Part shown: piece after piece, positions 14,591-37,254 of the stretch
How the letters are laid out: each line of letters begins with the position of its first letter
Position numbering within the stretch: the stretch's first letter is position 1
Assembly: GCA_938045815.1 (NCBI GenBank)
Contig: CALIBI010000038.1
Coordinates: 1-37,614 of the forward strand
Direction: 5' to 3'
Length of the DNA stretch: 37,614 bases
Source: an uncultured Sulfolobales archaeon
GTDB lineage: Archaea > Thermoproteota > Thermoprotei_A > Sulfolobales > NBVN01
The notes under the pieces: generated by a model
Told to the model about the DNA's origin: nothing
What the model saw: the letters and a program-made list of their open reading frames with translations, nothing else
The model's database searches: none
Translations under genes and position numbers: made by a program

Positions 14591-14705
14591 TGGCGCCGCG
14601 GCCGGGATTTGAACCCGGGTCACGGGCTTTCCGCATGCCTAAATTCTCTTATTCCGTAGGAGGTTCGACAGGCCCGCATACTAGGCCGGGCTATACTACC
14701 GCGGC
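14591..14705 (-). tRNA. tRNA-Asp (GTC) with 37-nt intron
   Basis: The acceptor strands GCCGCGG and CCGCGGC pair perfectly, followed by discriminator G and an encoded CCA (14593-14591). The D arm, the anticodon stem CGGGC/GCCCG and the T arm CCGGG-TTCAAAT-CCCGG are complete. The anticodon GTC is at 14669-14667. A 37-nt intron (14665-14629) sits at the canonical 37/38 position. CTGT of the loop pairs with GCGG of the intron (two G-T pairs) to form the 4-bp helix of a bulge-helix-bulge. The flanking bulges are CGA and AAA, and cutting them leaves G37 and A38. The intron should be removed by the archaeal splicing endonuclease, not seen here. Confidence 0.96.
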
Positions 14706-15216: not shown

Positions 15217-16565
15217 TGAGCTACTTAGGAAGACTGAAAGAATTAGTATCTGATTTTGTTAGAGGTAAGGGACCCTACGAAGAAAGCGTTAATGAGTTCG
15301 TAAAAGAACTTCAGAAAGAACTAATTAAGGCTGACGTGAACCTTAAGCTAGTAATCGATTTAACCAAGAACATAAGAGAACAAGCTCTGAAGTCTGAGCC
15401 ACCTCCAGGAGTCCTGAGGCGTGAGTGGTTTGTCAAGATAGTTTACGATAACCTAGTGAGATTCTTTGGCGGGGAGGTAGTAGAGGTACTGCCTAGGAAG
15501 ATCCCGTGGGTCTTGATGCTGGTCGGCATACAGGGTAGCGGGAAAACAACTACTGCCGGGAAACTCGCGTACTACTATAAGAAGCTTGGTTATAAATCAT
15601 GCTTAATAACTACAGATACTTACAGACCAGCCGCCTACGACCAGTTAAAGCAGATAGCTGAGAAACTTAACGTTCCGTTCTACGGCGAGAAAAATAACGA
15701 CAACCCTGTCGAGATAGGTGTGCGTGGCTTAAGCAGAATGCTTAAGGAAGGATGTAGTTTAGTGGTCATCGATACTGCAGGGAGACACGGATATGGTGAG
15801 GAAGAACACCTTCTTGAGGAGATGGAGGAGCTAGCTAGAGCTTTAAAACCTGATGAGATCATGCTAGTTATTGATGCCTACATAGGTCAGAAAGCATACG
15901 ACATAGCGAAGAGATTTCATGAGAGAACTCCTGTAGGCTCCATTTTCGTAACGAAGCTTGACGGGACTGCTAAGGGTGGTGGCGCGCTCTCAGCGGTTGC
16001 TGCTACGGGAGCTAAAATAAAGTTTATTGGTGATGGCGAGAAGCTTGAAGATATAGAGCCGTTCAACCCCAAGAAATTCGTTGCTCGACTACTAGGTCTC
16101 GGAGACTTAGAAACTCTGCTAGAGAAGTTTAAGGCTCTAGAAGAGAGTGAGGAAGTTCAGAAGAGGCTTGAGAAAGCTGTTCTTACCGGGAAGCTAACAC
16201 TGAGAGACGTCTACGCTCAAGTCAGGTCCTTAAAGAGATTAGGACCCCTGAGAAAAGTCCTTCAAATGATCCCAGGCTTTAGTATGGCTATACAAGTTGA
16301 TGACGAAAAACTCCAGATTTCCGAGAAGAGTATGGAGAAATGGCTACATATAATGGACTCAATGACTTACGAAGAACTTGATCACCCAGCAATAATAGAC
16401 AAAAGCAGAATAAACAGGATAGCTAGAGGTGCTGGAGTAAGTCCTAACGACGTGAAAGAACTTCTGAGATACTACGAGACTCTAGTAAAAATGATAAAAA
16501 CGTTGAGGAGTAGAAAGGACTTACTGAAGAGGTTTGGTTTGAAAGATGTTTCGCTCGAGCAATGA
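15216..16565 (+). CDS. srp54: Signal recognition particle protein SRP54
   Basis: SRP54 is the GTPase that binds signal sequences and the SRP receptor. The N domain is 1-90. The G domain has the P-loop GIQGSGKTT (104-112), DTYRPAAYDQL, DTAGRHG and TKLDGTAKGGGAL. The methionine-rich M domain runs from about 315, with the RNA-binding helix-turn region GAGVSPNDVKELL. The 449 residues match the family. It overlaps aIF5A by 1 nt and Pus10 by 20 nt. SRP19 lies 2.7 kb downstream. Confidence 0.97.
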   Translation: MSYLGRLKELVSDFVRGKGPYEESVNEFVKELQKELIKADVNLKLVIDLTKNIREQALKSEPPPGVLRREWFVKIVYDNLVRFFGGEVVEVLPRKIPWVLMLVGIQGSGKTTTAGKLAYYYKKLGYKSCLITTDTYRPAAYDQLKQIAEKLNVPFYGEKNNDNPVEIGVRGLSRMLKEGCSLVVIDTAGRHGYGEEEHLLEEMEELARALKPDEIMLVIDAYIGQKAYDIAKRFHERTPVGSIFVTKLDGTAKGGGALSAVAATGAKIKFIGDGEKLEDIEPFNPKKFVARLLGLGDLETLLEKFKALEESEEVQKRLEKAVLTGKLTLRDVYAQVRSLKRLGPLRKVLQMIPGFSMAIQVDDEKLQISEKSMEKWLHIMDSMTYEELDHPAIIDKSRINRIARGAGVSPNDVKELLRYYETLVKMIKTLRSRKDLLKRFGLKDVSLEQ

Positions 16566-17835
16566 ATTACTTGATAAGGTGTTTAAAGCACTACTTAATT
16601 ACCCCCTCTGCGATAGGTGTTTAGGAAGACTTTTCGCTAAGTACGGGCTAGGATTAAGTAATCCTGAGAGAGGTAGGGCCCTCAAAATATTGTTAGCGAT
16701 GATCATACATAAAGAACTGAGTAGTAGTGAGGGTGTGTTAAGTAAGGAAGATCTCGTGAGGATAGCTGAGAATGGGGGTAGCCCTATCTCAGAGCTGGTG
16801 CGGTACTATGTTGGGTCTGTTAACGTCAGGAAATGCCATATTTGCGGTAATAAGTTAGATATGCTGATAAACGAGTTAACTGTTAAGTGTCTTGATCTCC
16901 TCAAAAATAGGGACTTCAAGTCTTTATTGGTTGGTGTAGAGAAGAATTCCACGTATGAGGAAAGAGAAAAAGAAGTTGTGTCTGTGTTGGGTGTGGATTC
17001 CTGGGAATCGATTAGGAGGGAGATCAAGAGGGAAGTAGGTAAGAAACTCCACTTAATTACTAGCACGGAACCTAATTTCAGAGAACCTGATGTCTTGCTG
17101 GTTCTTAATCTAGATACGGAGGAAGTCAAGATTAGGTCTTCTCAGATATTTCTTAGAGGGTATTACCTGAAGTTAGGGAGACACATATCTCAGAGGTGGT
17201 GGTATTCTAAAGACGGTGGTTTAAGATATAGGATGTCTGTAGAGGGTGTGGCGGATAAACTAGTAGGTGTGTTCTTAAGTGACGGTATTCTGATACATGC
17301 GGCAGGTCGTGAAGATTCTGACGCGAGGATGTTAGGTGGTGGGAGACCCCTAATTATTGAGGTCGTGAATCCTCGCAGGAGGGAGTTCAGGTTGGAGGAG
17401 GTAAATAACGCCTTACTTGAGGAGTGGGTTAAGATAAGGGTACTCACTACCTCATCCTCGAAAGAGCTTGAGGAGGTTAAGAAAGCTAGGAAGCCTAAAG
17501 TGTATAGGGTAGTTGTTTACGTGCCTGGAGGGCTTGAGGAAGAGGAACTCAAAAGAATTGAGGAAGGGTTAAGCAACTCTGTAGTGCGTCAGAGAACTCC
17601 TAGGAGGATACTTAAGAGAAAGAAAGATGTTTTAAGGTATAGGAAAATACATGTGTTGGTTGCTAGGATGCTTTCTAAATACTTGTTAGAGTTGATGATT
17701 ATGTGTGAGAGCGGGCTTTACGTGAAGGAAGTCATTACTGGTGACGAAGGCCGCACGAGTCCTTCAGTTAGTGCGTTGCTGGGTAAGGAAGCACTTCCAA
17801 TATTCCTGGATGTTCTGGAGTATGTTAGAGACTGA
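16546..17835 (+). CDS. pus10: tRNA pseudouridine synthase Pus10
   Basis: Archaeal Pus10 makes pseudouridine 55, and often 54, in the T loop of tRNAs. The N-terminal THUMP-containing domain has a zinc site formed by CDRC (22-25) and CHIC (97-100). The catalytic domain contains GREDSDARMLGGGRP (about 254-268), with the active-site aspartate, and the C-terminal GDEGRTSPSVSALLG. Length (429 aa) is normal. The ATG at 16546 lies inside the end of SRP54, a 20-nt overlap that suggests coupled translation. Its 3' end converges on the cis-prenyltransferase gene. Confidence 0.95.
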   Translation: MFRSSNELLDKVFKALLNYPLCDRCLGRLFAKYGLGLSNPERGRALKILLAMIIHKELSSSEGVLSKEDLVRIAENGGSPISELVRYYVGSVNVRKCHICGNKLDMLINELTVKCLDLLKNRDFKSLLVGVEKNSTYEEREKEVVSVLGVDSWESIRREIKREVGKKLHLITSTEPNFREPDVLLVLNLDTEEVKIRSSQIFLRGYYLKLGRHISQRWWYSKDGGLRYRMSVEGVADKLVGVFLSDGILIHAAGREDSDARMLGGGRPLIIEVVNPRRREFRLEEVNNALLEEWVKIRVLTTSSSKELEEVKKARKPKVYRVVVYVPGGLEEEELKRIEEGLSNSVVRQRTPRRILKRKKDVLRYRKIHVLVARMLSKYLLELMIMCESGLYVKEVITGDEGRTSPSVSALLGKEALPIFLDVLEYVRD

Positions 17836-21161: not shown

Positions 21162-23147
21162 TTAAAATTCTCTGCTTTTTCTATACTCCTCAATTAACGC
21201 ATTAATATCCTCATACGTCAATCCGTACTTCTTCTTCCTTCTTTCTTCAGCGAGCTGAGGAACTAAAGCAACGAGCCTGTCGAAAGAATCTTTATCAATC
21301 GCTACGATGCACTCATTAACTTCAAGAACTTCCTCAGCCGAGACTGCGGGTATCAGTTCTTCCTCCACTAGGTGTTTACTCAACCCTAACGCGGTTGGAG
21401 GCAATATAAAACCTAGTCTCGAACTCTCAACGAATTCTCGCGCTTCTTTAAGAGCTTCGTCTATATTGTACGTGAAAGCTGCTGTGATCCTTTCTTTACT
21501 GAGCTTCAAGAACTTGAGGCACTTACTACTATATACTGGGACCAGCACGTGTGTGCCTGTGTAAAGTTTCATGAATAAGTTTTCGTAGTTGATCGCTTTA
21601 GATCTTAAGGTGTTGTTTTCATTCTCTAGTATTCTTAAGTGTGCTTCGAGATTCCTCACTCTCTGCATGAGCTCACTAATCTTCCTATCTCTGAGGATCT
21701 TCTCACTAAGTTCTGAAGACATGCTGTCTAGACGTGATGAGAGATCCCGCACGGTTTTCTCTAGTTCAAGCACTCTCTGCTTGTAGAACTCCCTCTCCTT
21801 CTCAAGAGTATTTATCTTTTCTTTGAGTACCTCCTCCGTCCCGCGTGTCTGCGGGGCGACATCGCTTCTCAGAATAATTGGTGGTTCTTTCTTCTCTTCC
21901 CTCACGTAATCGTTAATCACTTCCTCAATTATGCTTGAGAGATCTTCATTCATTAATACCTTAACCTTGTATTTCTGTAAGTTGATGTCGTGAAAACCTA
22001 TCTCTCTCAGCCTATAAGACAGCTTCTCTAGCTTATCCTGAAATTCCTTATAAGCCTTAAGCGCTGCTGCTAAAGCATCTCTTTCGTGTGAGTTCTTAAT
22101 ATCTATTGATGGGTGCTGCTTAACGAACTCAGCAACAATCATTTCTTTCTCTACAGTACTCAACGGTTTCTGAGGTACGTAGAATAACGCGCCTAGAGAA
22201 GCAGCTAACTTCCTACACATTTCTGGAGGTGGGTTTTTATCAGTAGCTACTAGTACTGGATGCCCGAGCTTAATTAGTAGGTTATGTATATCGCCTCTAT
22301 CGAGTTCTCTCCCCGAAGTAACGTACACTAAGTTCATGTCTAAGTCTAGTACTGCTAAACCCACACTAACTCCCGGATCATACCCTACTATTAAGTAGCG
22401 TTTCTCATCACTCCCTCTAAACTCAGCTATATTGCTGAGGAAACTCTTACTGAGAACAGGTCTAATCCTAACTACTACGTCTTTACTCTTAACTTGCTTG
22501 ATTAAGCCATAAAGCCTCTCACGTGATGTGTAAACAACGAATAAAGCTTTCTCGATACCGCCGTCACTCCTCCTAACTGCGAGGTCGTAATCAATATTGT
22601 TTTTGTCGAGAATCTCCTTCACCCTCTTCACGTGTCTGGTAACTATAGCACGTAGATTCCTGACATACTTCTCTGTTCTAGAACCCCCCGCTATTCCGGA
22701 ACGCCCAGGATACACGTATATCTTGACCTTATCTTCGAAAACCTTTAATCTACTGCCGTAGCCTTCCCTCGCTAGGTAAGCTACGACTAGAGCGGTTTTG
22801 AAGGGGTCCAGCTTGCTTTTATCACTAGTAAGTCCTGCTTCCTCAGCTAAGTACTGAACCTTAACCAGCTTACCTGACTCAACATTGACTTGAATCAGCG
22901 TAAGACTTGGGGGGAGCATCTTAATAACCTTAAGCAAGTCTCTCTTACTACCACCTAGCTCGAGCACGTTATCCGTAGCCAAGATATCAGGTCTTATATC
23001 CCAGAGCTCCCTGATCAATCCTCCGAAACTAACCTCCTTAACTGCTTTAAGAACACCGCCCTCCAAAAACACCATCGCGTACCTAAACTGCGATAAGTCG
23101 CTACCAGATCTAACTATATCAATACCTACTATCTTTTCAGATTTCAT
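21162..23147 (-). CDS. DUF460 protein with two RNase H-like regions and a coiled coil
   Basis: This is a conserved archaeal DUF460 protein of unknown function. An N-terminal RNase H-like region begins IVGIDIVRSGSD and ends near KLDPFKTALVVAYLAREG (to about 130). A basic region (150-245) follows. A second RNase H/RuvC-like domain (about 250-370) has VGYDPGVSVGLAVLD, ATDKNPPPE and HERDALAAALKAY, which supply acidic residues in the usual places. Residues of about 435-530 are heptad-like, charged and probably coiled coil, followed by a small alpha/beta C-terminal domain. It overlaps RIO2 by 11 nt, hinting at a role near ribosome or RNA maturation. Nuclease activity is plausible but not shown. Confidence 0.82.
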   Translation of the reverse strand: MKSEKIVGIDIVRSGSDLSQFRYAMVFLEGGVLKAVKEVSFGGLIRELWDIRPDILATDNVLELGGSKRDLLKVIKMLPPSLTLIQVNVESGKLVKVQYLAEEAGLTSDKSKLDPFKTALVVAYLAREGYGSRLKVFEDKVKIYVYPGRSGIAGGSRTEKYVRNLRAIVTRHVKRVKEILDKNNIDYDLAVRRSDGGIEKALFVVYTSRERLYGLIKQVKSKDVVVRIRPVLSKSFLSNIAEFRGSDEKRYLIVGYDPGVSVGLAVLDLDMNLVYVTSGRELDRGDIHNLLIKLGHPVLVATDKNPPPEMCRKLAASLGALFYVPQKPLSTVEKEMIVAEFVKQHPSIDIKNSHERDALAAALKAYKEFQDKLEKLSYRLREIGFHDINLQKYKVKVLMNEDLSSIIEEVINDYVREEKKEPPIILRSDVAPQTRGTEEVLKEKINTLEKEREFYKQRVLELEKTVRDLSSRLDSMSSELSEKILRDRKISELMQRVRNLEAHLRILENENNTLRSKAINYENLFMKLYTGTHVLVPVYSSKCLKFLKLSKERITAAFTYNIDEALKEAREFVESSRLGFILPPTALGLSKHLVEEELIPAVSAEEVLEVNECIVAIDKDSFDRLVALVPQLAEERRKKKYGLTYEDINALIEEYRKSREF

Positions 23148-24036
23148 CTCTCAAACCCTTCACGAACTCTAGGCAATCACCAACTTTCTTCTCTAACCCA
23201 TAATTTTCTTTGAAGAATTTAACCATGTATGAAACATCCCTGAGTAAGAGTTTCTCGGCTCCTGGCTCATCTCTATACACGTATTGAGGCCAGTCAATAA
23301 TGTATGGTTTCTCACCCTCACTAACACTAACCAGAATATTGTACTCACTTAAATCTCCGTGAACAATTCCTAAATCTACGTAAGCACTTCTTAAAGCAGA
23401 CATTATAGACCTCAAGATCTTCTCCGGCATTAAAGCTTTCTTGTACCTATACAACTCTACCCCGTCCACGTAATCCATAACTACAGAGTGCTCTACGTGA
23501 GCGTAAACATGAGGAACTAACGACGTATAATTGCTCAGCTTACTTAAAACCGTGTACTCCCTGCTTGCGGCATTCCTGGAAAGCGAAAACCACCTACTCT
23601 CGTCTAAAGCGTAGGCCCGAACCCTCTTAATTTTCTGGAAACTAACACGCCCGATCTTATAAAACTTGACAGCAACAATTTTCTCCGTAGGTGTTTTAGC
23701 GACGTAGATCTCGCTTTCTTTCCCGACACCAACCCTGGTTCCTAAGTAAGCCAGCACTCCAGAATCACTTAGTTTTTTAAGAGCTACTAAATCTAAGCCT
23801 AGGTAAGTGAGTCTAAAGCTTTGAGTAGTTTTGTGCTTAACAACTGCTTTCACATCAATCAACTCCTTAAGAGATTTAATAATACGTGAGGGAGTAAGCT
23901 TAGTAATTCTCTCGATCTCTTCCAGAGGTACGTACTCGTACTTGAGACCAAGACTATTAAGCGTTAAGAGAACTCTGAAACTATCATCACTTAATCCTTT
24001 ATAAATCAAGGCTAGTTCTCTCAGTCTCTTAACCAC
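23137..24036 (-). CDS. rio2: RIO2-type atypical protein kinase/ATPase
   Basis: RIO2 acts in final maturation of the small ribosomal subunit. An N-terminal winged helix (1-90) precedes the RIO domain with GVGKESEIYVAK (103-114), the lysine in VAVKFYK, the catalytic loop HGDLSEYNIL (226-235) and the metal-binding IIDWPQ (246-251). The order and length (299 aa) match archaeal RIO2. It is the upstream member of a pair with the DUF460 gene. A C/D box sRNA lies directly upstream. Confidence 0.96.
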   Translation of the reverse strand: MVKRLRELALIYKGLSDDSFRVLLTLNSLGLKYEYVPLEEIERITKLTPSRIIKSLKELIDVKAVVKHKTTQSFRLTYLGLDLVALKKLSDSGVLAYLGTRVGVGKESEIYVAKTPTEKIVAVKFYKIGRVSFQKIKRVRAYALDESRWFSLSRNAASREYTVLSKLSNYTSLVPHVYAHVEHSVVMDYVDGVELYRYKKALMPEKILRSIMSALRSAYVDLGIVHGDLSEYNILVSVSEGEKPYIIDWPQYVYRDEPGAEKLLLRDVSYMVKFFKENYGLEKKVGDCLEFVKGLRDEI

Positions 24037-24077: not shown

Positions 24078-24138
24078 AATACTCAGCAACGAACCTAACA
24101 TCACTACTCAGACCCGGGTTCACTCATCATTCTCCTCA
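24078..24138 (-). ncRNA. C/D box sRNA, D' guide complementary to tRNA T arms
   Basis: Read on the minus strand: C box ATGATGA (24130-24124), a 12-nt guide GTGAACCCGGGT, D' box CTGA (24111-24108), a 3-nt linker, C' box GTGATGT (24104-24098), a second guide of about 11-12 nt, and D box CTGA (24086-24083). Box order, identity and spacing are those of archaeal methylation guide RNAs. TATA-like TTTAATTAA (24160-24168) is about 26 bp upstream of the predicted 5' end. The first guide pairs with ACCCGGGTTCA, present in the tRNA-Asp T arm here and nearly so in tRNA-His and tRNA-Arg. The D+5 rule would put ribose methylation at G51. The second target is not identified. The 3' end can also form a GTTGCT/AGCAAC hairpin. 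Confidence 0.85.
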
Positions 24139-24159
24139 ATCTAAGACTGTCAAGAAAGT

Positions 24160-24168
24160 TAATTAAAG
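24160..24168 (-). promoter_or_regulatory. TATA-like box of the C/D box sRNA
   Basis: Minus-strand TTTAATTAA sits about 26 bp upstream of the predicted sRNA 5' end near 24138, and downstream of the SAM synthetase stop. The sRNA may therefore be transcribed independently. Position-based inference. Confidence 0.5.
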
Positions 24169-24181
24169 CTAATTAAAAATC

Positions 24182-25432
24182 TTAGAATAACATGACCTTA
24201 CCGCTCAGCACCTCATACGTGATCTTAGTTATGTTCTCTAGCTCCTCATTAACTATCTCAACAACATCAGACTTAACAGTGTTGAATGCTTCCTTCTCAG
24301 TAGGTATTAGCCTTACTAAAGCCATCTGAGGATCATCTATCGGGTGACCTATCCTGGAAAGAAGCTTCACATAAACTTCCTTAACTTTAGGAACCTCATT
24401 AATTATTCTAGTAGATATCTTGTTAGCGAGAACGTTATATATTTTGCCGACATGCGTCACAGCGTTTTTGCCGGCAGTAGCTTCCAGACTCATCGGTCTC
24501 ATAGGAGTTATTAGTCCGTTGACCCTATTACCACGACCGGTCATCCCGTCATCACCGTGTTCTGCGGAAGTCCCGGTGACAGTAATGTAGACAGAATTCT
24601 TTTCAGGGATATCAGCACTATTAATGAATATTTTGATATCGTACTTCCGCGCGTCATCTCTCTTAGATAACTCCTTAACCACGTAGTCCCTAACCTTATT
24701 TTCTACTTCATCCTTCACAGACAAGTAGTGACTCATGTCAGTTATTAGGTGGGATATCATTGCCGCAGCAACGGTGAGTCTTATTTCATTACCTACTCTA
24801 AGACCCATCACCTTAATATCCTCCCCAACTTCAGGGTACTTCTCCTTAAACTCATGAGCGTTCAAATACCTCTCAACACCTAAAACGATGCTCTCTAAGA
24901 GTGTTAGAGGCGCGTAACTAACCCCTATGCTGGTGTCGTTAGCTAGCGGTCTACGCTTCTCCTTCAATCCAGTCTCGTATGTTTGAACTAAGTCTACACT
25001 ACCTGTTCTTATCATGTAATCAACTATCACGTGCCTTTCAGGATCTAGAAACCTGAAATTCTGGGAAATCCACTTCTTGACAGCATCAACCACTATAGTA
25101 CCTACTGGAATCCTGTCTAAGCTCCCGTTACTTAAGCTCACGAACTCCGTAGCTCTGCCAGCAACCAATATGTATATTGGGTGAAGAACCTCGCCACCAC
25201 CGAAACGAGGTTTTGACTGCCCGCCAACAACTAAAACCTTGTCTACGTTATGATGTAGGATCATGTTATAATTCTCTAGATAGTACTTAGAGAGAGCAAC
25301 ACTAGATACTTCGGAAGCTGCGTCAGCTATGTAGTCAGGGTGACCGAGCCCCTTCCTCTCAACAAGCTCAACTCTCCACTCACTAACTGGTGAGTAATCA
25401 GCTAACTCAACCTCAATATTCCTAGCCATCAT
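24182..25432 (-). CDS. mat: S-adenosylmethionine synthetase (archaeal type)
   Basis: This enzyme makes SAM from methionine and ATP. It is the archaeal class, distinct from bacterial Met[28 protein letters not shown] and the glycine-rich [18 protein letters not shown], followed by [20 protein letters not shown], are conserved. The open frame continues upstream to 25504, but the extra residues overlap the end of the preceding gene and are unlike the family. The adjacent ATGs at 25432/25429 fit. A TATA-like run at 25461-25475 would drive it independently of the gcvP genes. Confidence 0.95.
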
Positions 25433-25478
25433 CACACACCACTTAAGATATAAAACTCGGTAAAATTTTAAATATAAC

Positions 25479-26657
25479 TTAGGTTGTTGAGTCTTCAGAA
25501 ACACGAGTTATTTCTTTTGTGCGTAAGAATTTATCTAAACAACAAGCAGGTAAGACTAACTTAACAGTCTCTTCGCCATAACCTGTTATGATTCTCCAGT
25601 AACCGCTTAACTCGAGTTCTAACTCAGGATCACCAACATCTATTAAGAGATACTTTATTCCGGTAAGCTTAGAAGGAGTTGCTAACACGAATATGTCGTT
25701 CTTCCTAACATTTCTTAAGACCCTAGCACTAAACTGCTGGTTACCTCTACCGAAAACGTATCCCTGCCTACCTATAACAGACACTACTAAGTAGGCGTGA
25801 CCATACTCCCTCATCAAATCAAGTATTTCCGACTCACTCAAATCCCTACCTACTAGTCTCCCATCATAGATCGCGTCAACACCTAACAACGTCTTCTTAA
25901 GCCCTAAGAGATCTGCGATCGCTTTAGTTGTTGTTCCGGGACCTAAGAAGTATAGGGTTTTTGGAAGCATGTAGTCCTCAATGAAGTACTTAGCAATACC
26001 CCACTTCTCCTCCTCCGAACCACTAACTAAGTCTTTAGAAGGCACAACAAACCCCTCTAAAACCGGGGTGACCGCGTACCCGTACAGGCGAATATTCAGT
26101 AAATCCTCTTTAAGCTTAGTCTCATCAACGTCAGCAACCTCAACCTGATCCACAACAACACCACCCTTCTCGAACTCTACTACAACCTCAGCAGCTGTTT
26201 CAGGGGACGTGGCGAAAACACCTGAATACATCTTAACTCCGGAAGGAACCCCCAGGATCGGGATCTTAGCTCCCGCAATACTCAACACGTCTCGCGCCGT
26301 GCCGTCACCGCCAACGAAAACTACTAAGTCAACACTATTCTCTAGGAATGCCTCAACAACTCTTAAAGTGTCTTCACGTGACGTGACACGCTTGCCAGGG
26401 TCAGGTAAGTCTAGGCACTCAAACCTCAATTTACTTAAGCTTAAGTAGTCGCAACCCATGACAGAATTAGCTGCTATTACTACTCCCTGAAAACCTTTCT
26501 CTGAGAGTGCTTGAAGAAACCTAAGAGCTTTTGAGGGAGCTACGGGTTTAGCTCCTCTCCTCAGAGCTTCTTCATAAAGCTCGCCATCAGTTCCTTTAAG
26601 CCCTACAGATCCCCCCATACCAGCGATAGGGTTCACAACAAAACCTAACTTCACCAC
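25479..26657 (-). CDS. ATP-NAD kinase/AcoX-like family protein
   Basis: This belongs to the NAD-kinase-like superfamily, in the branch often annotated AcoX. GFVVNPIAGMGGSVGLKGTD (5-24) and the nucleotide-binding GGDGTARDV (116-124) are clear, followed by VPSGVKMYSGVFATSP (138-153). The C-terminal half (270-390) is the long extension characteristic of this branch. True substrate is not established; NAD phosphorylation is not certain. It begins 26 nt after gcvPB and is probably co-transcribed with the glycine cleavage P-protein genes. Confidence 0.82.
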   Translation of the reverse strand: MVKLGFVVNPIAGMGGSVGLKGTDGELYEEALRRGAKPVAPSKALRFLQALSEKGFQGVVIAANSVMGCDYLSLSKLRFECLDLPDPGKRVTSREDTLRVVEAFLENSVDLVVFVGGDGTARDVLSIAGAKIPILGVPSGVKMYSGVFATSPETAAEVVVEFEKGGVVVDQVEVADVDETKLKEDLLNIRLYGYAVTPVLEGFVVPSKDLVSGSEEEKWGIAKYFIEDYMLPKTLYFLGPGTTTKAIADLLGLKKTLLGVDAIYDGRLVGRDLSESEILDLMREYGHAYLVVSVIGRQGYVFGRGNQQFSARVLRNVRKNDIFVLATPSKLTGIKYLLIDVGDPELELELSGYWRIITGYGEETVKLVLPACCLDKFLRTKEITRVSEDSTT

Positions 26658-36950: not shown

Positions 36951-37018
36951 AGTAAACAACAAATGATGAAGAACATCCGGGACAGAACAAATGAAGAACC
37001 GTGTGAGGACTGACATAA
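36951..37018 (+). ncRNA. C/D box sRNA candidate upstream of tRNA-His
   Basis: Boxes in order: C box ATGATGA (36963-36969), a 13-nt guide, D' box CAGA (36983-36986, one change from CTGA), a 4-nt linker, C' box ATGAAGA (36991-36997, one change), a 12-nt guide ACCGTGTGAGGA and D box CTGA (37010-37013). Spacing is that of archaeal guide RNAs, and degenerate internal boxes are common. TATA-like TATATAATC at 36921-36929 could drive it. The D guide would methylate the C within a UCCUCACACGGU-like target; I cannot identify the RNA. The 5' and 3' ends are approximate. Confidence 0.7.
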
Positions 37019-37049: not shown

Positions 37050-37127
37050 GGCTCCGGTAGCTCAGTCCGGAAGAGCGCGGGGCTGTGGACCCCGAGGTCC
37101 CGGGTTCAAATCCCGGCCGGAGCCCCA
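37050..37127 (+). tRNA. tRNA-His (GTG)
   Basis: The acceptor GCTCCGG/CCGGAGC has an encoded G at position -1 (37050) opposite discriminator C73 (37124), the identity pair of tRNA-His. The CCA (37125-37127) is encoded. The anticodon GTG is at 37085-37087, between CGGGG and CCCCG. The T arm is CCGGG-TTCAAAT-CCCGG. There is no intron. TATA-like CTTAAAAA lies near 37019-37026, about 27 bp upstream. Confidence 0.97.
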
Positions 37128-37176: not shown

Positions 37177-37254
37177 GGGCCCGTGGCCTAGCCAGGACAA
37201 GGCGCCGGCCTGCGGAGCCGGAGACCCCGGGTTCAAATCCCGGCGGGCCCGCCA
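37177..37254 (+). tRNA. tRNA-Arg (GCG)
   Basis: The acceptor GGGCCCG/CGGGCCC is followed by discriminator G and an encoded CCA (37252-37254). The anticodon GCG is at 37212-37214, between CCGGC and GCCGG, and reads CGC/CGU arginine codons. The T arm is CCGGG-TTCAAAT-CCCGG. There is no intron. TATA-like AATATTTTA at 37145-37153 is about 28 bp upstream. Confidence 0.97.

Follow-up and report, generated by a model that had tools for sequence, protein, structure and literature searches.

The window analysed here, positions 1 to 37,614 of contig CALIBI010000038.1 from an uncultured Sulfolobales archaeon (assembly GCA_938045815.1), carries on its minus strand a short element with the appearance of a C/D box small RNA (sRNA), and this raises the question of whether it is a genuine guide RNA and, if so, which RNA it guides. 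From comparison of sequences, the element is very probably an archaeal C/D box guide sRNA whose D' guide would direct 2'-O-methylation of G51 (Gm51) in about 17 of the 45 tRNAs of this genome. A previous sequence-only reading had assigned it to positions 24078-24138 but the element, from box C to box D, spans 24083-24130, and its parts are as follows.

24083..24130, minus: C/D box sRNA core, box C to box D (box scan, shuffles, conservation)
24124..24130, minus: box C, ATGATGA, exact match to RTGATGA (box scan)
24112..24123, minus: D' guide GTGAACCCGGGT, complementary to tRNA positions 47-57, with the fifth base from the box (D+5) opposite G51
24108..24111, minus: box D', CTGA, exact (box scan)
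24098..24104, minus: box C', GTGATGT, one mismatch (T for A at the last base; box scan)
24087..24097, minus: D guide TAGGTTCGTTG, without a convincing target
24083..24086, minus: box D, CTGA, exact (box scan)

Box architecture

Read from 24130 to 24083, the element is ATGATGA-GTGAACCCGGGT-CTGA-GTA-GTGATGT-TAGGTTCGTTG-CTGA, with guides of 12 nt (D') and 11 nt (D) separated by a D'-C' spacer of 3 nt. The box order C, D', C', D, the CTGA D boxes, the RTGATGA C box, guides of about 10-12 nt and a short D'-C' spacer are those of archaeal C/D sRNAs, and the earlier description of four well-spaced boxes was borne out. A mechanical scan at the stringency of the element found one C/D candidate in the window; 60 dinucleotide-preserving shuffles of it yielded none. 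One step looser, the scan found two candidates against a shuffle mean of 0.03. An Rfam search gave no gathering-level match at the sRNA. Short archaeal C/D sRNAs commonly lack one.

The D' guide fits the T arm of 17 tRNAs

The 45 tRNA genes of the genome were gathered, their T arms tabulated and the pairing of each with the D' guide scored; amino-acid labels of intron-containing tRNAs are those of ARAGORN and some may be off. A tRNA was counted as a target if it had at least nine contiguous Watson-Crick pairs spanning D+5, following the nine-pair rule used in PMC4644070. By this standard 17 of the 45 genes are targets, in agreement with the suggestion that one guide serves many tRNAs. Pairing extends over 11 bp (positions 47-57) in tRNA-Asp and two Glu tRNAs, over 10 bp (positions 48-57) in ten further tRNAs, and over 9 bp (positions 48-56) plus a G-U pair in another four. 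The fifth guide base from box D' lies opposite G51 in all 17, so the register predicted by the D+5 rule is the same throughout. Three of these targets are in the window, and the 11 and 10 nt of pairing previously noted for them were confirmed.

14594..14705, minus: tRNA-Asp(GTC) with an intron, 11-nt D' guide target (Rfam tRNA, 47.3 bits)
37051..37124, plus: tRNA-His(GTG), 10-nt D' guide target (pairing)
37177..37251, plus: tRNA-Arg(GCG), 10-nt D' guide target (pairing)

The sequence CCCGGGTTC occurs four times in the window against 0.11 expected, in the three tRNA T arms and as the antisense of the guide. tRNAs with CGGGG, GCGGG or GTGGG stems mismatch the guide at positions 49-50 and should be poor targets.

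In archaea, L7Ae, Nop5 and fibrillarin assemble on the two kink-turns (k-turns) of a C/D sRNA, and fibrillarin 2'-O-methylates the target nucleotide opposite the guide's fifth base, counted upstream from box D or D'. The fibrillarin and Nop5 genes adjoin each other in the host genome. If expressed and assembled with these proteins and L7Ae, the window sRNA would pair through its D' guide with the variable-loop/T-stem/T-loop segment C48-A57 of CCGGG-stem tRNAs, and Gm51 would be made in about 17 of the 45. The substrate is probably a precursor or unfolded tRNA, since the site is in the T stem, where pairing must open. A ribose methyl group shifts the sugar towards the C3'-endo pucker and shields the backbone, and a stabilising role at high temperature is therefore plausible.

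Conservation and gene neighbourhood

The sRNA is found in a 145-bp gap between two genes on its own strand, and the S-adenosylmethionine made by the first of them is the methyl donor.

24182..25504, minus: S-adenosylmethionine synthetase (metK), upstream gene (Pfam PF01941, E 6e-166)
24159..24167, minus: TTTAATTAA, possible TATA element, weak, 28 nt before box C
23137..24036, minus: RIO2 kinase, downstream gene (Pfam RIO1 and Rio2_N)

A C/D sRNA is present in the metK-RIO2 gap in three further genomes of the same genus (G166, G167 and G168) and in three other genera (G170; G142 and G143; G157), while in G169 it follows metK and RIO2 was not found at that locus. In other genera of the family (e.g. 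g9 and g10) the sRNA is absent from this place. Among the aligned relatives, 37-45 of 48 bases of the sRNA are identical to the window sequence, compared with only 17-55 of 97 in the flanks. The columns that never vary are those of the TGATG and CTGA boxes and of the AA-CCGGG guide core, and the TGATG of box C' is invariant in eight aligned genomes. The sequence-only reading had made its case depend on conservation of the boxes in relatives, and on this point it holds. The TATA-like box that it placed upstream is present but is not conserved in the relatives. Pus10, which it set beside the sRNA, is in the window at 16546-17835, separated from the sRNA by 6.2 kb and several genes; this is loose proximity only, and the adjacent genes are those for S-adenosylmethionine synthetase and RIO2.

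These comparisons support the element as a genuine C/D box sRNA, the boxes, guide and gene position being kept in relatives. The mismatch in box C' and the orphan second guide might be expected of a chance sequence or a relic pseudogene, but none of the 60 shuffles contained anything as good, and boxes and guide core are invariant across four genera where the flanks are not. We regard this explanation as highly improbable. Nearly as improbable is a role mainly in cis, in which the element would form a k-turn in the leader of the RIO2 mRNA and, by binding L7Ae, control translation of RIO2; the control by L7Ae of its own mRNA (PMC5539422) would be a model. The element is on the RIO2 strand and syntenic in four genera, and in some genomes box D is near the RIO2 start (about 13 nt in G166). 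However, the distance to RIO2 varies (more than 150 nt in G143), the sRNA of G169 follows metK where RIO2 was not found, and the two guides are kept in full together with all four boxes, more than a cis-acting k-turn would need.

Other possible targets of the two guides

The D' guide-target match is kept in the window genome (G000) and in G166, G167, G168 and G169. Several observations weigh against methylation of G51 as the function. The guide of G170, G142 and G143 has GAAACC, which sets an A opposite G53, and the guide of G157 mismatches C56. The assembly containing the window gave no 16S rRNA match, and pairing with 16S was examined in relatives only. The D guide had no target with at least nine contiguous pairs among the tRNAs and rRNAs (own 23S, relatives' 16S), so that a double-guide function is not seen. 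Finally, Gm51 is not listed in the body text of Wolff 2020, tables aside (PMC7668247).

A genuine C/D sRNA might have its working target elsewhere, in rRNA or another RNA, with the tRNA match a by-product of composition. The change at guide base 7 in three relatives, which produces the mismatch at G53, would be compatible with this, as would the site ACCCGGGATCCC in 23S rRNA, which gives seven contiguous pairs including D+5. Yet this 23S site is mismatched by the guide of every relative, and comparison of the D' guide with the genome's tRNAs and with rRNA, a check proposed with the original description, found no rRNA site with nine contiguous pairs, the best having 7-8 (own 23S, relatives' 16S). 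The tRNA pairing is longer (10-11 bp) and involves many tRNAs in one register, and in other families independent guides match different T stems in the same G51 register (see below). A target outside the tRNA T arm is thus unlikely, and Gm51 formation by the D' guide is preferred.

Three types of candidate were tried for the D guide and rejected. The best matches to own 23S and relatives' 16S were short or dependent on G-U pairs and not common to the relatives. At the anticodon/intron junction of pre-tRNA-Asp, CGAACCT(C) fits in G000 and G168; G166 and G167 have a different intron there and G170, G142 and G143 have none, so this was rejected as a general target. Pairing with G28 of the Asp and Glu tRNAs consisted mostly of G-U pairs and was unconvincing. 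In G142 and G143 (tRNA-Asp loci L183 and L184), there are 9 nt of complementarity between the D guide TGGGTCGGTGA and CACCGACCC, which lies at the 3' end of tRNA-Asp and in its trailer; the match was not seen in G170 or G157.

Two of the relatives' 16S genes are unusual. That of G166 (L110) spans about 2.4 kb and probably contains an insertion or intron of about 900 nt, and the one binned with G169 (L111) looks bacterial and is likely contamination.

T-arm guides across the class

Across 229 genomes of the class, a search was made for the pattern TGATGA-N0-5-GAACCC-N2-6-CTGA, with the reversed pattern as a control. There were 55 matches listed, in 48 of the 229 genomes, against five for the control, and these raw matches include some rRNA guides or chance occurrences. 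A spacing of 4 between GAACCC and CTGA, equivalent to the G51 register, was found in 44 of the 55 matches and 30 of the 40 distinct guides, where a random distribution would spread over spacings of 2-6. The three bases that follow were left free in the search. Among the 30 distinct guides with this spacing, 12 had one of five common T-stem triplets there, where about 2.3 would be expected; the guides are related, so p values would be too small. Outside the class the pattern was concentrated in family f33, including GAACCCGGGC-CTGA in three genomes, and it was absent from all of the many f18 genomes sampled.

Some of the raw matches were rejected as T-arm guides. L087 (GAACCCCTTG) fits the 16S sequence CAAGGGGTG better, and L084 looks like coding sequence. 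The sRNAs of family f7 (L074, L077, L080, L082, L104 and L105) are not counted as clear T-arm guides, as their guide GAACCCGAG mismatches C49 of the tRNAs listed for G124. They carry the GAACCC-type guide before box D and AGGTCCGCTT before box D', so that the two guides stand in the opposite order from those of the window sRNA; this may be due to permutation by way of a circular form, or to chance. At L099, around position 1001, two GAACCC-type guides are found in direct tandem, the one for GAGGGG and the other for CTCGGG sequences.

sRNAs with guides for positions 34 and 51

In two sets of these sRNAs both guides fit the same tRNA when the tRNAs of the window genome are used as stand-ins. In family f9 (L089-L098), the D' guide GTGAACCCCGG fits CGGGG T stems in the G51 register, and CCGTGTGAGG, the D guide, matches the anticodon loop of tRNA-Val(CAC), with D+5 on C34; the T stem of tRNA-Val is CGGGG. 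In L075, L085 and L102, D+5 of the guide CTTACAAGG falls on U34 in the anticodon loop of tRNA-Thr(UGU), as read from a degenerate D' box, and the second guide matches that tRNA's GCGGG T stem, apart from a single mismatch in L075. This suggests that a single sRNA can reach two sites in the same tRNA. No such partner target was found for the window sRNA, whose D guide lacks one that holds in its relatives.

A more general interpretation is possible and is offered tentatively, as we hold it with less than even confidence. Lineage-specific C/D sRNAs of the Thermoproteota may form a Gm51 system that holds the G51 register while the guides follow changes in the T stem, often with positions 34 and 51 addressed in the same tRNA (Val-CAC, Thr-UGU), and of which the window sRNA would be the version for Asp, Glu and other CCGGG tRNAs. 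Gm51, if it is made, would be a testable ribose-methylation site, one that a term search of a review of thermophile tRNA modification did not find; candidate guides would be available for some orphan methylations in crenarchaeal tRNAs, and guide RNAs would track one structural site as its sequence context changes.

A second C/D candidate is located in the window at 36963-37013 (plus strand), 38 nt before tRNA-His. It reads ATGATGA-AGAACATCCGGGA-CAGA-ACAA-ATGAAGA-ACCGTGTGAGGA-CTGA, and its D guide has 10 nt of pairing with the anticodon loop of tRNA-Val(CAC), with D+5 on C34. In the family f9 sRNAs, the D guide of this candidate is joined to a T-arm guide.

Relationship to known guides

The most novel features are the recurring G51 register with a changing guide and the pairing of positions 34 and 51, which were not found described in the literature compared. 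There are precedents for guides common to several tRNAs. Among the C/D sRNAs of Sulfolobus acidocaldarius the most abundant is Sac-sR10, whose proposed targets are Gly-CCC, Pro-CGG and Pro-GGG (PMC5539422); the prediction of a C50 site in Gly-CCC is quoted in PMC7668247. Like the window sRNA, Sac-sR10 would serve several tRNAs at a site in the T-arm region, but the reported position is 50 rather than 51, and the likeness is one of reported targets. Guides for T-arm position 50 are also cited in PMC7912444. The C/D sRNAs of Pyrobaculum that target tRNAs (Lui 2018, in the summary given by PMC7994747) have guides for conserved tRNA segments and resemble the window sRNA in using a segment common to tRNA families and, according to the same summary, in often having a targetless second guide. 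The C/D guide for Cm56 in Pyrobaculum aerophilum (PMC7912444) also acts on the tRNA T arm, though on C56 in the T loop rather than G51 in the T stem. The pre-tRNA-Trp intron guide for Cm34/Um39 (PMC7994747) is a further case of C/D-guided tRNA ribose methylation but, unlike the window sRNA, lies within a tRNA intron and has a single tRNA as its target.
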